A stretch of 39,379 nucleotides of DNA, from assembly GCA_902556285.1 (NCBI GenBank), contig CACDWD010000002.1, positions 1-39,379 of the forward strand, written 5' to 3'. Source of the stretch: an uncultured Pelagibacteraceae bacterium. GTDB taxonomy: Bacteria; Pseudomonadota; Alphaproteobacteria; Pelagibacterales; Pelagibacteraceae. The notes under the pieces were generated by a model. It was not told the DNA's origin. It did no database searches and saw only the letters and a list, made by a program, of their open reading frames with translations. Below, in pieces: positions 29,762-38,696 of the stretch. The position numbers and the translations under genes are program-made. Position 1 is the stretch's first letter. The number at the start of each line of letters is the position of its first letter.

Positions 29762-30631
29762 ATGAAAATAGCATTTATTGGCACAGGTTTAATGGGCTAT
29801 CCAATGGTAAAAAATCTTGTTCAAAATAAATTAAAGGTAAATGTTTATAGTAGAACTATTGATAAGGCAAAACCATTAGAAAAATATGGTGCAAAAGTTT
29901 TTAATTCATTAAGTGGAGCTATTAAAAACGTTGATATTATTATTACAATGTTGACTGATGATCGTGCTGTTCACAATGTTTTAGGAAGCAAAGAATTTCA
30001 AAATACAATAAAACCTTCATCTGTTGTAATTGATATGTCTTCTGTTAATCCTAAAACTGCAATTAAATATTTCAAATTATTAAAAGATAAAAAAACTAAT
30101 TTTTTAGATGCACCAGTATCTGGTGGAACAATTGGAGCAAAAGAAGGAAGTTTAGCGATAATGGTCGGGGGTAATAAAAAAATTTTTGATAAAATTTTTC
30201 CTATTTTGAAAGTTTTAGGAAACCCAACATTAGTTGGGCCTGTTGGTAGTGGTCAAATAGCTAAACTTGCTAATCAAATTATTGTTGGAATAACTATTGG
30301 AGCAGTAGCAGAGGCAATTTTTTTATGTGAAAAAACAGGGGTTGATGCGAATAAATTTATTAAAGCATTATCGGGGGGCTTTGCTGATGGAAAAATACTC
30401 CAAAATCATGGGAAAAGAATGATAGATAAAGACTTCTCCCCAAAAGGGAAAGTCTCAACTCATCTTAAAGATATGAACAATATTTTAAATTGTGCGCATG
30501 AGTTCAAAATTAAGTTGCCAATTTCAAATTTAATTAAAAAGATGTTTAAATCATTGGTAGATCAAGGTCATTATAATGATGATCACAGCGCTTTGTATAA
30601 AGAAATAAAAAAGATAAATAATAATTTATAA
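29762..30631 (+). CDS. NAD(P)-dependent beta-hydroxyacid dehydrogenase (3-hydroxyisobutyrate dehydrogenase-like)
   Basis: FIGTGLMGYPMVKNLVQN, DAPVSGGTIGAKEGSLAIMVGG, GSGQIAKLANQ signatures. Confidence 0.9.
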   Translation: MKIAFIGTGLMGYPMVKNLVQNKLKVNVYSRTIDKAKPLEKYGAKVFNSLSGAIKNVDIIITMLTDDRAVHNVLGSKEFQNTIKPSSVVIDMSSVNPKTAIKYFKLLKDKKTNFLDAPVSGGTIGAKEGSLAIMVGGNKKIFDKIFPILKVLGNPTLVGPVGSGQIAKLANQIIVGITIGAVAEAIFLCEKTGVDANKFIKALSGGFADGKILQNHGKRMIDKDFSPKGKVSTHLKDMNNILNCAHEFKIKLPISNLIKKMFKSLVDQGHYNDDHSALYKEIKKINNNL

Positions 30632-31729
30632 ATTATATTTTCTTTTTAAATGTCTTAATTTACCTTCGGTGCTATCATAATCAATATAACAACCTTGTAA
30701 AAATCTTTCACCTTCTTTCGTTTTATAAGCTGTTCTACCGTGGAGCAACCTGTGATTATCCATCATCATCAGATCTTTTGGTTCAAGTCTAAATTCTATT
30801 CTATATTTTTCTGAATTATACATTTCAGATAGCTTTTTTCTAGCTTGATAATATATATCTAATTCTTCTTTATCTAAAATTGGTACATAGTCTAGTCTAG
30901 GACTAAATCTTACCTGCTTAAAACTCTTATCCTCAGTTAGTTCAATCAAAGGAGAGATAGTTTCTAAAATTACTTCTTTGTCTATAAATCTAAATCTAAC
31001 TTTTACTTCAGTTAAAATTTTATAAAATTCTGGGAATTGATTTTTTAAATCTTCAGTAACTGTATAACCGTCTACCAATGTTGATAATCCTCCTGAAACT
31101 TTACTTTCTATACAATGTAAAATTTGAATACATGGTACAGGATTTCTATAAGGATTGTCAGTATGAGGCGCTAATGCCAATGAAGTATAAGCAAGATCGT
31201 TTGGATCAGGTTTAGATTTTACGTTAAAATATTCACCAAAATTTGTTCTTCGAACACTGCCTATAGAATTTGCAAATTCCACAATATAATTTTTAGATGT
31301 TGGAATATTTTTAATTATTACAAAACCATAATTGTAAAACGAAACAAGTAGATCATGCATCTCTTTACTTTCGTAAAAATTTTCTTGGTATTCAAAATTT
31401 TTTATATTTTTTAAAGAGGAGTCCCATTTGGTTTTTTCAATAGATTTTATTATAATATCTTCTTTTGAAAATTCAGAAGTAATTTTATCAATTTCTATTT
31501 TTGAATTAACACCATCATTAAAATCAACCTCTAAGTATTTTTCATTAAGGTTTACTTTATTTATTGAAATATCATTATTTAAAAAGGTAGGATCAAAAAG
31601 TCTTTGCTGAGTTCCTTTATCTAAATACTCCTCACCATTAACTCTTTCTCTTAACCAGAATGGGTGAATTTCTTTTTTTTCAGACCCATTATTAAAATAA
31701 ACCTTATTTTCAACTAGCTCGATTTTCAT
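30626..31729 (-). CDS. Gamma-butyrobetaine hydroxylase-like TauD/TfdA dioxygenase
   Basis: N-terminal HPFWLRERV...GTQQRLFDP domain as in GBBH; catalytic APHTDNPYR and MMDNHRLLHGRTAY. Confidence 0.85.
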   Translation of the reverse strand: MKIELVENKVYFNNGSEKKEIHPFWLRERVNGEEYLDKGTQQRLFDPTFLNNDISINKVNLNEKYLEVDFNDGVNSKIEIDKITSEFSKEDIIIKSIEKTKWDSSLKNIKNFEYQENFYESKEMHDLLVSFYNYGFVIIKNIPTSKNYIVEFANSIGSVRRTNFGEYFNVKSKPDPNDLAYTSLALAPHTDNPYRNPVPCIQILHCIESKVSGGLSTLVDGYTVTEDLKNQFPEFYKILTEVKVRFRFIDKEVILETISPLIELTEDKSFKQVRFSPRLDYVPILDKEELDIYYQARKKLSEMYNSEKYRIEFRLEPKDLMMMDNHRLLHGRTAYKTKEGERFLQGCYIDYDSTEGKLRHLKRKYNL

Positions 31730-31796: not shown

Positions 31797-32603
31797 GTGA
31801 AAAAATTTGATACAAAAAAATATCCAATATATGCAAGCTTTTTAAATCAACTTGCTAAAGATTTAACTAAGTTTTATTACGCTAAGTTAGATAAACCATT
31901 CAAGATAACCAACAAGATGAAAGGCAAAGGTTACGATCCTGTAACAACATCAGATAAAGCCTTTGAAAAATTTATAAGATCTAAAATTTCAAAAAAATTC
32001 CCAAATCATCAAATTATAGGTGAGGAATATGGTCATAAAAATACAAAGAGTGAGTTTTCATGGGTGATTGATCCAATTGATGGAACCAGATCATACGTTG
32101 TGGGTAATCCTAGTTGGAGCAATCTTATTTCACTTAATTTTAATGGAGAGCCTGTTCTAGGACTAGCTAATTTTCCAAAAATGAAGAAATATTATTTAAA
32201 CTTAAATAAAAACTCGGCCTATGTTTTTGAGAATAATAAAAAAAGAAAATTAAAAATTAATACCAAGCTAAATTTTGCAAAAGCAAAATTAGCAGCAGCA
32301 TTTCATCACCACTTATCTTTGAAACAGCAATTAAAAATTAAAAAGTTTATAAAAAGAATGCAATTTCCTTGTTTTGATGCATTGACATATTGTCAATTGG
32401 CAGAGGGTAGAATTGAAATAGTTGCTCAATGTGCAAATAAAATTTGGGATATTCATCCATTGATACCAATTGTTAGAGCAGCAGGAGCAATAATAACTAC
32501 CTGGGATAATAAAAACCCTGTGTTAGGTGGAAATATACTTGTTTCTAACAACAAAGTTAATCATCAAAAAGTTTTAAAATTATTAAAGCCAGTAGCTAAA
32601 TGA
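31797..32603 (+). CDS. Inositol monophosphatase/histidinol-phosphatase family (GTG start)
   Basis: IIGEEYGHKN...WVIDPIDGTRSYVVGNPSWSNLI, IWDIHPLIPIVRAAGA. Confidence 0.88.
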   Translation: MKKFDTKKYPIYASFLNQLAKDLTKFYYAKLDKPFKITNKMKGKGYDPVTTSDKAFEKFIRSKISKKFPNHQIIGEEYGHKNTKSEFSWVIDPIDGTRSYVVGNPSWSNLISLNFNGEPVLGLANFPKMKKYYLNLNKNSAYVFENNKKRKLKINTKLNFAKAKLAAAFHHHLSLKQQLKIKKFIKRMQFPCFDALTYCQLAEGRIEIVAQCANKIWDIHPLIPIVRAAGAIITTWDNKNPVLGGNILVSNNKVNHQKVLKLLKPVAK

Positions 32604-33163
32604 TTCCAGAAAGAGCACAAGTAATTTTAGATTTCTGGTTTAAAGAAACTCCTTCCGAAATGCGTTTTAAAAAAGATGAAAAGTTTGATCAAAAAATTAA
32701 AGATAATTTTTTAAAAGATTACGAACTTGCTTGTCAAAATGAATATGATGATTGGCAAGATAATCCTATGAGCTGTCTTGCGTTAGTAATTATATTTGAT
32801 CAGTTTTCAAGAAATATGTTTAGAAATGATAAAAAGGCTTTTGCTCAAGATCAAAAAACTAGATTGATTGTAAACGATGCAGTTTATTCAGGTTATTTAG
32901 AAGCTATGAATGTAAATCAAAGATTTTTTATGTTGTTACCTTTAATTCATAGTGAGGAAATCAGCGATCATGAAATGGCCTATTACTTATTAAACAAATA
33001 TTTAAGAGAACACGAAGGATACAATGAAATAAAAAAATTTTGGCAAGATCATACAAAAGCAATTAGACAATTTCATAGATATCCTCATAGAAATGAAATT
33101 TTAGGAAGAGAATCTACTGAAGAAGAAATAGAATTCTTAAAAAGCTCAAATTCTTCTTGGTAA
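32600..33163 (+). CDS. DUF924 family protein
   Basis: ILDFWFKETP...LALVIIFDQFSRNMFRND...RFFMLLPLIHSE. Confidence 0.88.
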   Translation: MIPERAQVILDFWFKETPSEMRFKKDEKFDQKIKDNFLKDYELACQNEYDDWQDNPMSCLALVIIFDQFSRNMFRNDKKAFAQDQKTRLIVNDAVYSGYLEAMNVNQRFFMLLPLIHSEEISDHEMAYYLLNKYLREHEGYNEIKKFWQDHTKAIRQFHRYPHRNEILGRESTEEEIEFLKSSNSSW

Positions 33164-33164
33164 A

Positions 33165-33536
33165 ATGAATTTAGAATTTATTTTCAAAGTTATAGATAAA
33201 GATGAGTGGCAAAAGGCCAAAAAATCTGGAACTTATGGTGGGTCAGAGAAAGATCTTAAAGATGGATATATTCACTTTTCTGAAGAGGATCAGGTAGAGG
33301 AAACTTTAAATAAACATTATCCCAAAAAAGAAAATCTAGTTTTGTTAAGAGTAAATGCATTTAAGCTTGAACATTTGTTGTGGGAGCAGGCATCGAATGG
33401 AGATATGTATCCCCATTTATATTCATCTTTAGATATTAGCACTGTTATTAATGAATATGAATTACCATTGAATGAAGACGGAAGACATGAGCTTCCAGAG
33501 ATTTTAAAAAAGTATCAGTTTAGTCGTCCAAGATAA
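33165..33536 (+). CDS. DUF952 family protein
   Basis: EFIFKVIDKDEWQKAKKSGTYGGSEKDLKDGYIHFSEEDQVEETL. Confidence 0.85.
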   Translation: MNLEFIFKVIDKDEWQKAKKSGTYGGSEKDLKDGYIHFSEEDQVEETLNKHYPKKENLVLLRVNAFKLEHLLWEQASNGDMYPHLYSSLDISTVINEYELPLNEDGRHELPEILKKYQFSRPR

Positions 33537-33850
33537 TTAACCATTATTACACCAATAATAATAAGGATAATTCCAATAATTCCATAAATATTAGGAACTT
33601 GATTAAATTTTAATACCGCAAAAAGAACAACCCCAGTTACAGTTAAGCCGCTATAGGTTGCGTAAGCAAAACCAACAGGAAGAGCGTGCATAGCTTTTGC
33701 AATTGAAAACATAGTAATACACATAAACAAAATACATAAAACTGATGGTGTAAGTTTGGTAAATCCCTCAGAAATTTTAGCTAGACTATTAGATGCAATA
33801 CCAAAAGAAATACCAATAGCTAAAAATATATACCCAAATAAAGGTTTCAT
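33515..33850 (-). CDS. SMR-family membrane protein A (non-canonical, lacks Glu14)
   Basis: Four-TM SMR architecture with SEGFTKLTPS; EmrE Glu14-equivalent is Gly and Trp63-equivalent is Tyr by manual alignment. Confidence 0.8.
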   Translation of the reverse strand: MKPLFGYIFLAIGISFGIASNSLAKISEGFTKLTPSVLCILFMCITMFSIAKAMHALPVGFAYATYSGLTVTGVVLFAVLKFNQVPNIYGIIGIILIIIGVIMVNYLGRLN

Positions 33851-33852
33851 GA

Positions 33853-34080
33853 TTATTCTTTTGATGCAATTTTATTAACTAATGGTCTCATTAAAGGAGC
33901 TAATGTAAATGCAGCAATTAAAGCAATAGGATATGCGAACATTATAGAATATCCCCATCTAAAAAAGAATCCATCCGACACACCTGTATTCACAGCTACA
34001 ACAACGCCACTCATTATAACACTCATACCCAAGGACATTAAAATCATAAATAAAGGTTGAGCATATTTTTTATTAATCAT
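33853..34080 (-). CDS. DUF2798-like small membrane protein
   Basis: FMILMSLGMSVIMSGVVVAVNTG...FRWGYSIMFAYPIALIAAFTLAPLMRPLVNKI. Confidence 0.75.
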   Translation of the reverse strand: MINKKYAQPLFMILMSLGMSVIMSGVVVAVNTGVSDGFFFRWGYSIMFAYPIALIAAFTLAPLMRPLVNKIASKE

Positions 34081-34082
34081 AA

Positions 34083-34415
34083 TTAACTATCACCTAACAG
34101 GTTGACCATTAAAACACCAACAATAATAAAAGCTAAACCAATTAATGAATATAAATTAGGCACTTGATTAAATCTAATTATTCCAACCACCACAGTCGCT
34201 ATAATTGTTAAACCTGCAAAGGAAGCATAAGTTATACCCATTGGAATATTTTTCATTACCAATGAAAGAGCATACATGCATAATACAATCGTAATTGCAG
34301 TAATTATACTTGGAATAAGAATAGTAAAACCTTCTGCACTTTTTGCAAAACTATTAGAGGTGACACCCAAAAATACTGCAATTCCTAAAAATAAATATGA
34401 AGTAGCGAGGCTCAT
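34083..34415 (-). CDS. SMR-family membrane protein B (non-canonical, lacks Glu14)
   Basis: SMR layout with AEGFTILIPS and NQVPNLYSLIGLAFIIVGVLMVNLLG; Glu14-equivalent is Gly, Trp63-equivalent is Phe. Confidence 0.8.
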   Translation of the reverse strand: MSLATSYLFLGIAVFLGVTSNSFAKSAEGFTILIPSIITAITIVLCMYALSLVMKNIPMGITYASFAGLTIIATVVVGIIRFNQVPNLYSLIGLAFIIVGVLMVNLLGDS

Positions 34416-34453
34416 TTTATCACTTTAAATGAATTTTAATTAAATATATAGAA

Positions 34454-35044
34454 TTATTTAAGTGACCATTTGATAGCATCTTCCATTCTATCATCTCCCC
34501 AAAAGAGTTCATTTTTCACTACAAAAGATGGGCTACCAAATATTTTATTTTCACGAGCCGAGTTTGTATTTTCTTTGTATTTTATTTCTATATCTGAGGA
34601 TTTTGCTTCAGAGAAGATTTCATCTTTTTTTAAATTTAATTCTGAACAAACTTCAGAAATACTTGGTTCGATTGCTGGTTCTTTACCTTCTTGAAACCAT
34701 TTTTTGTAAGTAAGAATTACAAATTTTTCTCCCCAACCTTTTTCGAAACCAAGGATTGCAATTTGGTTAGCTAAATCAAATTCTGATAATGGATAGGGTA
34801 CCGGTGTTTTAGCAAAGAAGCCATAACCCTCAGCTCTCCTTTCAATATCTCTCCACATATAATTAACTTTATTCATTTTATCTTTTGGAAATGGGATATT
34901 GTTCATCTCTTTCATGATTGCTCTTACTGAAAAAGGTTTCCAGTTGAATTTTACTTGATGTTGTTTTTCAACATCAAGTATTCTAGTAACGGATAGATAG
35001 GTGTAAGTACTTCCTATCGAAAAATAAAAATCAATTTCACTCAC
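34454..35044 (-). CDS. DsbA-family / 2-hydroxychromene-2-carboxylate isomerase-like protein
   Basis: IDFYFSIGSTYTYLSVTRI, FSVRAIMKEMNN, IFGSPSFVVKNELFWGDDRMEDAI. Confidence 0.85.
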   Translation of the reverse strand: MSEIDFYFSIGSTYTYLSVTRILDVEKQHQVKFNWKPFSVRAIMKEMNNIPFPKDKMNKVNYMWRDIERRAEGYGFFAKTPVPYPLSEFDLANQIAILGFEKGWGEKFVILTYKKWFQEGKEPAIEPSISEVCSELNLKKDEIFSEAKSSDIEIKYKENTNSARENKIFGSPSFVVKNELFWGDDRMEDAIKWSLK

Positions 35045-35365
35045 TTATTTTGGTATTGGTGTAGCACCAGTTTCTAAACTGACAATTTTTCCATTATCAT
35101 ATTTATAAACTGCCATTACCGCCTCAACATTACCATCATTAAATGTTACAAATGCATGGTGAATACCAACTTCGTCATTTTCATAAACAATTCTAACCTT
35201 ATCTTGATTAATATCACCACTCATCGCCCATTTGATAACATCACTTTTAGTTAAAACATTTCCTGACTTGTGCATTGTGAATTTAAAATCATCATGCAAA
35301 AGGTCATTCATTACTGCCTCATCTTTATTTTTCAAAGCAGCACTATATTTCTCTAATATAGACAT
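35045..35365 (-). CDS. NTF2/SnoaL-like protein
   Basis: YSAALKNKDEAVMNDLLHDDFKFTMH pattern; size and strand fit a short NTF2-like fold. Confidence 0.55.
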   Translation of the reverse strand: MSILEKYSAALKNKDEAVMNDLLHDDFKFTMHKSGNVLTKSDVIKWAMSGDINQDKVRIVYENDEVGIHHAFVTFNDGNVEAVMAVYKYDNGKIVSLETGATPIPK

Positions 35366-35376
35366 GTTATTCCTTT

Positions 35377-35661
35377 CTATTTAACCTTAGTTAAATCATA
35401 TATTGAGTAACTGTCTAACACTTCATCCATTATTGGTTTTGATACCTCGGTACCTTCTATAAACTTATGAAGTGCAGCTTCATCAGTACAAAATATTTTA
35501 AACATTACAGTACTTTTGTCTGGAGTTACAGTTCCAATTGTTTTTTCAACCACTGCAACTTTTGCTCTTTCAGCAAGTCCTTCAGGAGATTGCATAAATC
35601 CCATGAATTTTTCAAAAGTACCTTCTTTTAATTTTGCTACTACTAACATTTCTTTTTCCAT
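35377..35661 (-). CDS. Uncharacterised small protein (ferredoxin-like dimeric barrel possible)
   Basis: Complete 94-aa ORF in a co-directional cluster; good TTTTCTCC (GGAGAAAA) leader. Confidence 0.6.
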   Translation of the reverse strand: MEKEMLVVAKLKEGTFEKFMGFMQSPEGLAERAKVAVVEKTIGTVTPDKSTVMFKIFCTDEAALHKFIEGTEVSKPIMDEVLDSYSIYDLTKVK

Positions 35662-35680
35662 TTTTTCTCCTTTTTTTTTG

Positions 35681-36058
35681 TTAATATAGAGTTTGAACTA
35701 CTTTTTTAACTCTATCTTCTCCATTAGGCACTGTTAGATTTACAAAGTCATGACAGGCATTAGTTTTAACCTCGTCAAATTTAGACCCATAAAATTTATC
35801 AACAGCTTTGTTTACACCTTCATCCCATTCCTTTTCAGGAATTCCTACTTCTAAAGCATAAGCTTTTAAAACTTTCACTGATGCCATAGATTTTTCTTTC
35901 ATACTATATTCAAATGTTTCACCTGATGGTAAAAAATAGTTAGCCATGTAAATTCCACTACATTCCCAAGCTCTATTCTTATCAGCATCATTCATATCAG
36001 CATAAGCTGATTTTAGAAAAACAATGCTAAATAAAAAAGTTATTATTATTTTTTTCAT
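35681..36058 (-). CDS. Uncharacterised exported protein
   Basis: Signal peptide MKKIIITFLFSIVFLKSAYA; two Cys; GGAG ribosome-binding site upstream. Confidence 0.65.
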   Translation of the reverse strand: MKKIIITFLFSIVFLKSAYADMNDADKNRAWECSGIYMANYFLPSGETFEYSMKEKSMASVKVLKAYALEVGIPEKEWDEGVNKAVDKFYGSKFDEVKTNACHDFVNLTVPNGEDRVKKVVQTLY

Positions 36059-36069
36059 AAACTCCTCTA

Positions 36070-36546
36070 TTAATAAGTATACTCACCACTCATTTGATTC
36101 ATAGAGTGAGCCATACCAGCTTTACCTTTTATATTTTGTCTACTTGAGAAACCACTTCCAGATATATTTTCATATTTTCCAGTTCCACCAATAATAATAA
36201 AAGTACCAGTTCCACCTTGGCCGCCAGTTCCTTTACCTTTGTAATTCATATAAACTTTTTCTCCATCCATCAAATAAAAGGTACACATACCTGTTTCGTC
36301 ATCAAATTTTCCAGATACTAATGTTAGACCACCAATACAATGCATAGTAGATTTATCAAAAATACTTCCAGGTTCTTTATCCATTAGTCCAGCATTACCA
36401 TCGTAAGTAATACTCATGTTTCCATTTCCAGCATCCATTGCATTCAATGACCAAGATCCTGCTCCAGCAGCGTTAAATTTTCCTGACTCCGCTAATGAGT
36501 AATTTGAGATCGTTAAAAATATTATTAAAAATAAAATTTTCTTCAT
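36070..36546 (-). CDS. Uncharacterised exported Gly-rich protein
   Basis: Signal peptide MKKILFLIIFLTISNYSLA; repeated short beta/Gly segments GKGTGGQGGTGTFIIIGGTGKYENISGSG. Confidence 0.65.
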   Translation of the reverse strand: MKKILFLIIFLTISNYSLAESGKFNAAGAGSWSLNAMDAGNGNMSITYDGNAGLMDKEPGSIFDKSTMHCIGGLTLVSGKFDDETGMCTFYLMDGEKVYMNYKGKGTGGQGGTGTFIIIGGTGKYENISGSGFSSRQNIKGKAGMAHSMNQMSGEYTY

Positions 36547-36704
36547 TTTTACCTCTTTAAAGTTATTTAATTAAACAAAACATTGTTACATAATTGTGAA
36601 GGAGTCTCTTGTGTTTATAACGCGCGACAGTTATGCAATTTTAGAGTGTAAAAAACGTTGAATTAGTTGTTTTATTTAAAATTAATCTTTGATAAAATTT
36701 CGTA

Positions 36705-37121
36705 ATGATTGAGAAATTTAATGGAATTTTTTATTTAATAATTTTTTTAGTCCATTTCATAATCTTCGCTGCATACGCTTATCAAACAGTTTTTGCTACA
36801 AAGAAATTTTTAGATAAATTTGGTATGGACGATTCAGGCGCTATAATGACAAGATTTTTTGGATCATTATTTATTGGAGCAGTAGTTATGGCTATTTGGG
36901 TTGGGTTCATAAGACCAGATGGGCTCCAAGGAACATGGGCTTTTTTTAATTTAGTATTTTTACAAAACCTTTCAGCTTTTTGTGTGGGAATTTATACAAT
37001 TAAAATAAATAGGTTAGGTCATACTCCTCAAACATCTATTGAAGGAGTTATTGCGCCAGGTATTTTAACTTTATTGAGCGCAATACTTTGTTACGGATTA
37101 GCTGATAAAATTTATATCTAA
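36705..37121 (+). CDS. Uncharacterised four-TM membrane protein
   Basis: Hydrophobic segments throughout 138-aa ORF. Confidence 0.65.
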   Translation: MIEKFNGIFYLIIFLVHFIIFAAYAYQTVFATKKFLDKFGMDDSGAIMTRFFGSLFIGAVVMAIWVGFIRPDGLQGTWAFFNLVFLQNLSAFCVGIYTIKINRLGHTPQTSIEGVIAPGILTLLSAILCYGLADKIYI

Positions 37122-38119
37122 AACCAATTAGGTACCGGTAGACCTTTTTCTTCTAGAAATTTTTTATTGAACATTTTAGTTGCGTATTTATCACTTCTAT
37201 CACAAAGAATTGTTACAATAGTTTTACCAGGCCCTAATTCTTTACCCATTCTTATTGCGCCAGCAATATTGATACCACAACTAGTACCTAAGCTTAGACC
37301 TTCATTTTGAATTAAATCATAAAGTATAGGCAATGCTTCATGATCATCTATTGAATAAGCATCGTCAATCTTAGCCTCATCAAAGTTAGCTGTTACTCTA
37401 CTTGACCCAATTCCTTCAGTGATTGATCCACCTTCTGACTTTAGTTCACCAGTCTTTATATAATTGTACAGAGCCGAACCTTTTGGATCCGATAGGTAAA
37501 TTTTTATATCTTTGTTCTTTTCTTTAAGAGCATTACTTACACCTGAAATAGTTCCTCCAGTTCCGGAAGAACATACAAAGCCATCAACTTTACCTTCAGT
37601 TTGTTCCCAAATTTCTTGTCCTGTCCCTTCGTAATGACCTTTGGCATTTGCGGTATTATCAAACTGGTTAGCCCATATGACACCATTATTATTTGTTGGT
37701 CTTAATTCATCTGCAAGTCTAGCAGCTACTTTTACAAAATTGTTATCATCTTTATAAGGTTTTGGTGGCACCAATCTTAATTCAGCTCCAAGATTTCTAA
37801 GTAAATCTTTTTTCTCTTGAGTTTGGTTATCATTCATTACAATGATTGTTTTGTAGCCTAAAGAATTTCCTAATAGACCTAAACCAATTCCAGTGTTACC
37901 AGCTGTTCCTTCAACAACAGTTCCACCTTTTGCTATCAATTTTTTTTCTTGAGCATCTTTAATTAAAGCGAGAGCTGCTCTATCTTTAACTGACCCTCCT
38001 GGATTTAAAAATTCTGCTTTTCCATAAATGTTACATCCAGTTACTTCTGAAGCAGCTCTTAGTTTAATTAATGGAGTATTTCCTATTCCTGAAATAAAAT
38101 CGTTTTGTGTATTATTCAT
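37118..38119 (-). CDS. cysK: Cysteine synthase (PLP-dependent)
   Basis: [51 protein letters not shown] at 38119 (MNNTQNDF) preferred over 38170, which lies inside cysE. Confidence 0.93.
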
Positions 38120-38696
38120 TATCTGATTTTTTATCACTGTCAGGTGTAATACCATAAGGTTTAAATTCACTATCAGCTATTCCAACACTTCTTGCTGGTA
38201 TTCCAACCATCACAGCATTTTCTGCAACGTCTTTAGTTATAACCGCATTAGCTCCAATTCTTGCACCTCTACCAACTACTACTGGTCCTAACACTTGTGC
38301 ACCTGAACCAATAACTACATCCTCTTTTATAGTAGGATGTCTTTTAGTATTACGTTGATTATTGGAATTTATACTTGGAGCAATTCCACCTAATGTAACC
38401 ATATGATAAATAGTTACGTTATCACCGATCTCAGATGTTTCTCCAATTACAACACCCATCCCATGATCTATAAATAAATTTTTTCCAATTTTTGCATTTG
38501 GATGAATTTCAATTCCAGTTAAGAATCTTGAAAATTGAGAAATGATTCTTGCAATCAAATGAAACTTAGCAGTACTAAAAAAGTTTGCTATTCTGTGAAA
38601 GAATACTGCTTTAACACCAGGATAAGTTAAAATTAAACTCAGTTTTGACTTAGCAGCTGGGTCTCTATCAATTATTGATTGTAAAAAATCACTCAT
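38112..38696 (-). CDS. cysE: Serine O-acetyltransferase
   Basis: Hexapeptide repeats; [54 protein letters not shown]. Confidence 0.92.

Follow-up and report, generated by a model that had tools for sequence, protein, structure and literature searches.

A branch of small multidrug resistance proteins in SAR11 bacteria that lacks the central glutamate

Introduction

In all three cation-transporting subtypes of the small multidrug resistance (SMR) family a central glutamate has been described as essential. This paper concerns two SMR proteins, A and B, that have glycine at the corresponding position and are encoded on either side of a DUF2798 gene in a 39,379-nucleotide contig stretch (the window) of a SAR11 (Pelagibacterales) genome, G000, that is ~59% complete. 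The closest described systems are the Qac subtype (EmrE, QacC/G/H/J and EbrA/B), the paired SMRs, PSMRs (MdtI/MdtJ, EbrA/EbrB and YkkC/YkkD), and ArnE/ArnF, the 4-amino-4-deoxy-L-arabinose-phosphoundecaprenol flippase. Lipid SMRs often carry Asn at the site of the central glutamate and possibly work without proton coupling (PMC9574504). Where two SMR genes are adjacent, their products have opposite Arg/Lys biases in >95% of cases, with centres at +4 and -4; the values for singletons lie around 0 (PMC9574504).

A and B resemble the Qac subtype in their four transmembrane (TM) helices, their match to PF00893, the Tyr switch, Gly65 and the TM4 glycines, but they lack Glu14, Trp63 and the GXG fulcrum and score far under the Qac cut-offs. 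With ArnE/ArnF they share the absence of the central glutamate, the retained Tyr switch and the common occurrence of singletons; they differ in having Gly at the glutamate site, which in the Arn proteins is often Asn, and an Asn one turn later. As in the paired SMRs, two SMR genes are adjacent, but the known heterodimers have opposite charge biases and central glutamates, and A and B have neither. The original prediction, made from the window alone, was of a heteromeric, non-proton-exchanging transporter or flippase with the DUF2798 protein as a possible third subunit. Our analysis points, with moderate confidence, to a SAR11-specific Glu-less SMR subtype whose members would probably form dual-topology dimers and act as uncoupled facilitators or flippases for a non-cationic substrate.

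Results and discussion

The open reading frames of the window place the genes for B, the DUF2798 protein and A almost end to end on the minus strand, and no SMR gene besides A and B was found in the available part of the genome. The genes and the codons of interest are as follows.

33515..33850, minus strand: SMR protein A, 111 residues, A lineage of the Glu-less SMR clade
33853..34080, minus strand: DUF2798 protein, 75 residues, a predicted two-helix hairpin; a frequent neighbour, probably not a subunit
34083..34415, minus strand: SMR protein B, 110 residues, B lineage of the Glu-less SMR clade
33800..33802, minus strand: Gly17 codon of A, at the position of the central glutamate (from sequence and alignment)
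34365..34367, minus strand: Gly17 codon of B, at the position of the central glutamate (from sequence and alignment)
33788..33790, minus strand: Asn21 codon of A, invariant in the clade
34353..34355, minus strand: Asn21 codon of B, invariant in the clade

Both proteins are members of the SMR family by their length of ~110 residues and by their matches to PF00893 in Pfam, which scored 63.7 and 61.9 bits against a gathering cut-off of 23.7. The middle protein matches PF11391 (DUF2798) with 62.2 bits (cut-off 23.5). The predicted arrangement of two SMR proteins with a DUF2798 protein between them was therefore confirmed by both the reading frames and Pfam.

EmrE positions were assigned by whole-protein alignment. 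In A and B alike, Gly17 corresponds to E14 of EmrE, Asn21 to T18, Lys25 to K22 and Tyr63 to Y60, and W63 is replaced by Tyr66 in A and by Phe66 in B. Gly at the Glu14 position of both proteins and Tyr/Phe at that of Trp63 had been read from the window beforehand, and both assignments hold. A family-wide alignment was then made of 203 distinct Glu-less sequences from SAR11, comprising 106 of type A or A' (a second A type, described below) and 97 of type B. Gly occupies the Glu14 position in 106/106 and 97/97 of these, far beyond chance. All four Gly codons are used there, and the residue is thus held by selection while the DNA drifts. T18 is replaced by Asn, and K22 and Y60 are kept as Lys and Tyr, each in 203/203 sequences; Y60 is the Tyr switch, which all SMR subtypes conserve. 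The W63 position is Tyr in every A-type and Phe in every B-type sequence, and G67, the second Gly of the TM3 GXG fulcrum, has become Thr in the A types and Thr or Cys (Ala in one case) in B. Gly65 and the TM4 glycines are retained in both lineages. The hallmarks of the Qac, Gdx and polyamine subtypes (E14, Trp63 and the TM3 GXG fulcrum) are thus absent from A and from B.

No Asp or Glu was found in TM1 to TM4 of any of the 203 sequences, which rules out an acid that had been shifted into the membrane site and hidden by misalignment. In controls from outside SAR11, E14, Y60 and W63 were retained in 101/101 sampled SMRs; these came from the class and the phylum and were drawn from the Pseudomonadota matches to the Glu-less profile, with other phyla and the ArnE/F type not represented. 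The same SAR11 genus also has a canonical third SMR (L113-L126), which belongs to the same family and occurs in the same genomes as A and B and is ~30% identical to them (the figure for B being likewise ~30%). It differs in retaining E14, T18, W63 and G67 (E14 and W63 in 13/13) and in lying elsewhere in the genome.

As the membrane helices contain no acid and both the pocket Trp and the fulcrum Gly have been replaced, the earlier description of these proteins as non-proton-exchanging is well supported by sequence. A proton- or ion-coupled exporter in which Lys at the ends of TM2/TM3, Tyr60/Tyr63 or Asn18 takes over from Glu14 could draw on the conserved Lys22, on Lys/Arg at positions 49/52 and 78 and on the retained Tyr switch, but it seems quite improbable when all the membrane helices are acid-free.

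The predicted model of B has four helices, in keeping with SMR membership, and is of moderate quality (predicted local distance difference test, pLDDT, 69.5). Its best fold match in the PDB was EmrE (E 5.8e-4, template modelling score 0.61, 35% identity), followed by Gdx-Clo (E 2.3e-3), and a sequence comparison with the PDB likewise ranked EmrE first. The nearest NCBIfam model was QacCGHJ, with 81.8 bits for B and 63.1 for A; the Qac cut-offs are 160-226 bits. On A the ArnF model gave 16.6 bits (cut-off 99) and the ArnE model 13.4 (cut-off 92), and on B ArnE gave 15.3 (cut-off 92), the ArnF match being unlisted. Membership of ArnE/ArnF was rejected on these scores (13-17 bits where reported, against cut-offs of 92-99). 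No arn genes were seen adjoining the SMR loci among those examined. The ArnE/ArnF precedent that had been invoked is therefore apt as an analogy, the glutamate being absent there too, but does not extend to classifying A and B as ArnE/F. As SAR11 is among the ocean's most abundant bacterial groups, a very large number of genomes and metagenomes probably carry a wrong annotation of such proteins, which are usually labelled multidrug exporters.

All the Glu-less proteins fall into one clade, with a support of 100/100, and of 99/100 with positions 14, 17, 18, 21, 63, 64 and 67 masked. The clade divides into B and an A group, which consists of the window's A and the second type, A'. The best explanation of these sequences is that A and B are paralogues in a SAR11-specific SMR branch in which a single loss of the central glutamate would have been followed by divergence into A, A' and B. 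Separate losses in A and B are not favoured, as one clade is obtained even when the diagnostic columns are masked. Viral contigs gave no match to the Glu-less SMRs.

Among close relatives the ratio of non-synonymous to synonymous substitution rates (dN/dS) was 0.06 for A, 0.04 for B, 0.02 for CysK and 0.15 for DUF2798. The values for A and B are similar to or below those of most neighbouring genes and somewhat above that of CysK, and both proteins are under strong purifying selection. In a sample of 149 genomes (genomes of the window's genus with a completeness of 85% or more, together with G000), A or B was present in 131. Related genera have one or no Glu-less SMR, and one of these genera has mostly a single one. 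Three or four hallmark residues are lost and presence among genomes is patchy, which would be consistent with non-transporting remnants or regulators that retain the SMR fold. Such a role is highly improbable, however, in view of dN/dS values of 0.04-0.06, of replacement residues that are invariant across SAR11 and of the expectation that streamlined genomes shed useless genes. A branch that has lost the central glutamate, the pocket Trp and the fulcrum Gly, and has kept the Tyr switch under selection, is a natural test of the SMR scaffold without proton coupling.

The heteromer of the original prediction would require A and B to pair obligately, as fixed-topology halves of a single transporter or flippase that is not proton coupled, and DUF2798 might be its third subunit. 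The two SMR proteins differ from one another, each is strongly conserved and they occur together in 86/149 genomes; in 69 of these 86 they are adjacent and co-directional (on one strand within 600 bp), and DUF2798 lies at most 50 bp from B in 52/73 cases. However, the opposite bias seen in >95% of adjacent SMR pairs is absent: the mean Lys/Arg bias, from the formula of PMC9574504 with approximate region borders, was +0.96 for A, +1.13 for A' and +0.48 for B. Nor do the genes consistently co-occur as those of PSMRs do, A being found without B in 33 genomes and B without A in 12. Genome incompleteness accounts for some of these cases, but they include single-contig genomes, one with A and no B (G012) and one with B and no A (G718). 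Together with the related genus that has mostly a single SMR, these results do not support a heteromer, and the obligate heterodimer is unlikely. The near-zero bias and the occurrence of each protein alone point instead to dual-topology dimers, which A and B probably form. A may also mix with B in dimers.

A and B would each act as an antiparallel dual-topology dimer that retains the rocking motion of SMRs. Having no glutamates, such a dimer would neither carry protons nor coordinate cations; Asn21 and the Tyr/Phe residues could hold a neutral, zwitterionic or lipid-like substrate. From the lack of any membrane acid and the retention of the Tyr switch, the best inference is a facilitator or flippase that is uncoupled and moves a non-cationic substrate.

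The same residue evidence would serve for an uncoupled facilitator or uniporter of a small polar or zwitterionic metabolite (an osmolyte or an amino-acid-like compound) as opposed to a lipid flippase. A gene at 30626-31729, neighbouring the variable hotspot in which the SMR genes lie, resembles those of the gamma-butyrobetaine-dioxygenase type, and Arctic SAR11 has a betaine/carnitine island in which an SMR gene, perhaps of another clade, is described (PMC12421898). This was the only report found in the literature on SAR11 SMRs, and its section on the island contains no residue analysis. Against a metabolite facilitator, the synteny is that of a general hotspot and not of a dedicated pathway, and the sites have no constant operon partner in common that would be specific to a substrate. 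It is a possible function, if a somewhat doubtful one.

The surroundings of A' copies that lie outside the hotspot provide a lead towards lipids. A' lies directly after PhnD-PhnC-PhnE at L215, L312 and L322, beside PhoR and PstS at L319, and between an epimerase gene and UgpB/UgpA genes at L299 and L300. At L313 (L313:2887-7000) it is beside diacylglycerol-kinase-like and LpxH/PlcP-like genes and a gene for a 335-residue, Agt-like glycosyltransferase. PlcP and the glycosyltransferase Agt are a known lipid-remodelling pair in SAR11 (PMC8231724, PMC4796936), and the family and length of the L313 genes suggest that they are this pair. A role in lipid remodelling is a weaker, further step from these neighbours, a lead towards flipping and not proof of it. 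Carried to its conclusion, the Glu-less branch would be a fifth functional SMR subtype, found only in SAR11. Its members, Glu-free, dual-topology and uncoupled, would flip diacylglycerol or non-phosphorus glycolipids that serve to remodel the membrane, and some genomes would have recruited copies of A' to sites next to phosphate-stress genes. We regard this extension as speculative and rather doubtful.

Several observations weigh against the reading of A, A' and B as uncoupled, dual-topology facilitators or flippases. The close spacing of A and B on one strand suits a heteromer too, and uncoupled transport is deduced solely from which residues are missing. The phosphate context is confined to some copies of A', in few cases; at the same site, four of the copies sampled (L314-L317) have no phosphate or lipid genes directly next to them, and the window's own A and B have no such neighbours. 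The A' site may itself be a variable region that collects phosphate genes.

Other genes were noted around these loci. At L315, L316, L317 and L322 A' is near aquaporin-like and arsenate-reductase-like genes and a gene for a conserved 321-residue membrane protein without a Pfam match, which looks like a phosphate/arsenic region. A gene that begins like one for a sensor kinase follows A' and the lipid-gene cluster at L313 (L313:2887-7000), and BASS-type transporter-like genes are found beside A or A' at two sites (L221:4929-5777 and L317:3824-4687).

The association with DUF2798 can be understood from the region in which the genes of the window lie.

31797..38170, no strand assigned: variable hotspot flanked by IMPase-like and CysK-like genes, holding the SMR and DUF2798 genes and changing small genes

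Its content varies across SAR11 genomes and includes genes for SnoaL-like, DsbA-like and small secreted proteins as well as DUF2798 and SMR proteins. A conserved order of A, DUF2798 and B was searched for in the 149-genome sample and many alternatives were found (D being DUF2798): D-B-A in 22, B-D-A in 20, D-A in 15, B-A with D elsewhere (mostly ~5 kb off) in 17, B-A without D in 8, A and B at separate sites without D in 12, and D on the opposite strand at most 2.5 kb from A in 12. DUF2798 is thus freely lost, moved or inverted, and it stays behind when A leaves the hotspot; none was seen beside A at sites outside it. Beyond SAR11, no SMR gene adjoined DUF2798 in the sampled alphaproteobacterial loci (~1.5 kb flanks). 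These results speak against DUF2798 as a third subunit, and co-residence in a shared hotspot probably explains the association better than a complex does.

A two-helix hairpin is predicted with confidence for the DUF2798 protein (pLDDT 88). There is no acid among its invariant residues, and the idea that it supplies the acid missing from the SMR proteins is not supported. The literature yielded nothing on DUF2798 beyond incidental mention. The SAR11 hotspot contains two clearly distinct types of DUF2798, with ~30-38% identity between them (window 33853-34080; L018:904-1131 and L018:1257-1478; L125:4032-4256), and locus L018 carries both close together. The gene at 30626-31729, which is of gamma-butyrobetaine-dioxygenase/TauD type by its appearance, is found in synteny next to the hotspot in many genomes of SAR11. 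The 3' end of A on the minus strand overlaps that of a DUF952 gene on the plus strand by 22 bases (window 33515-33536).
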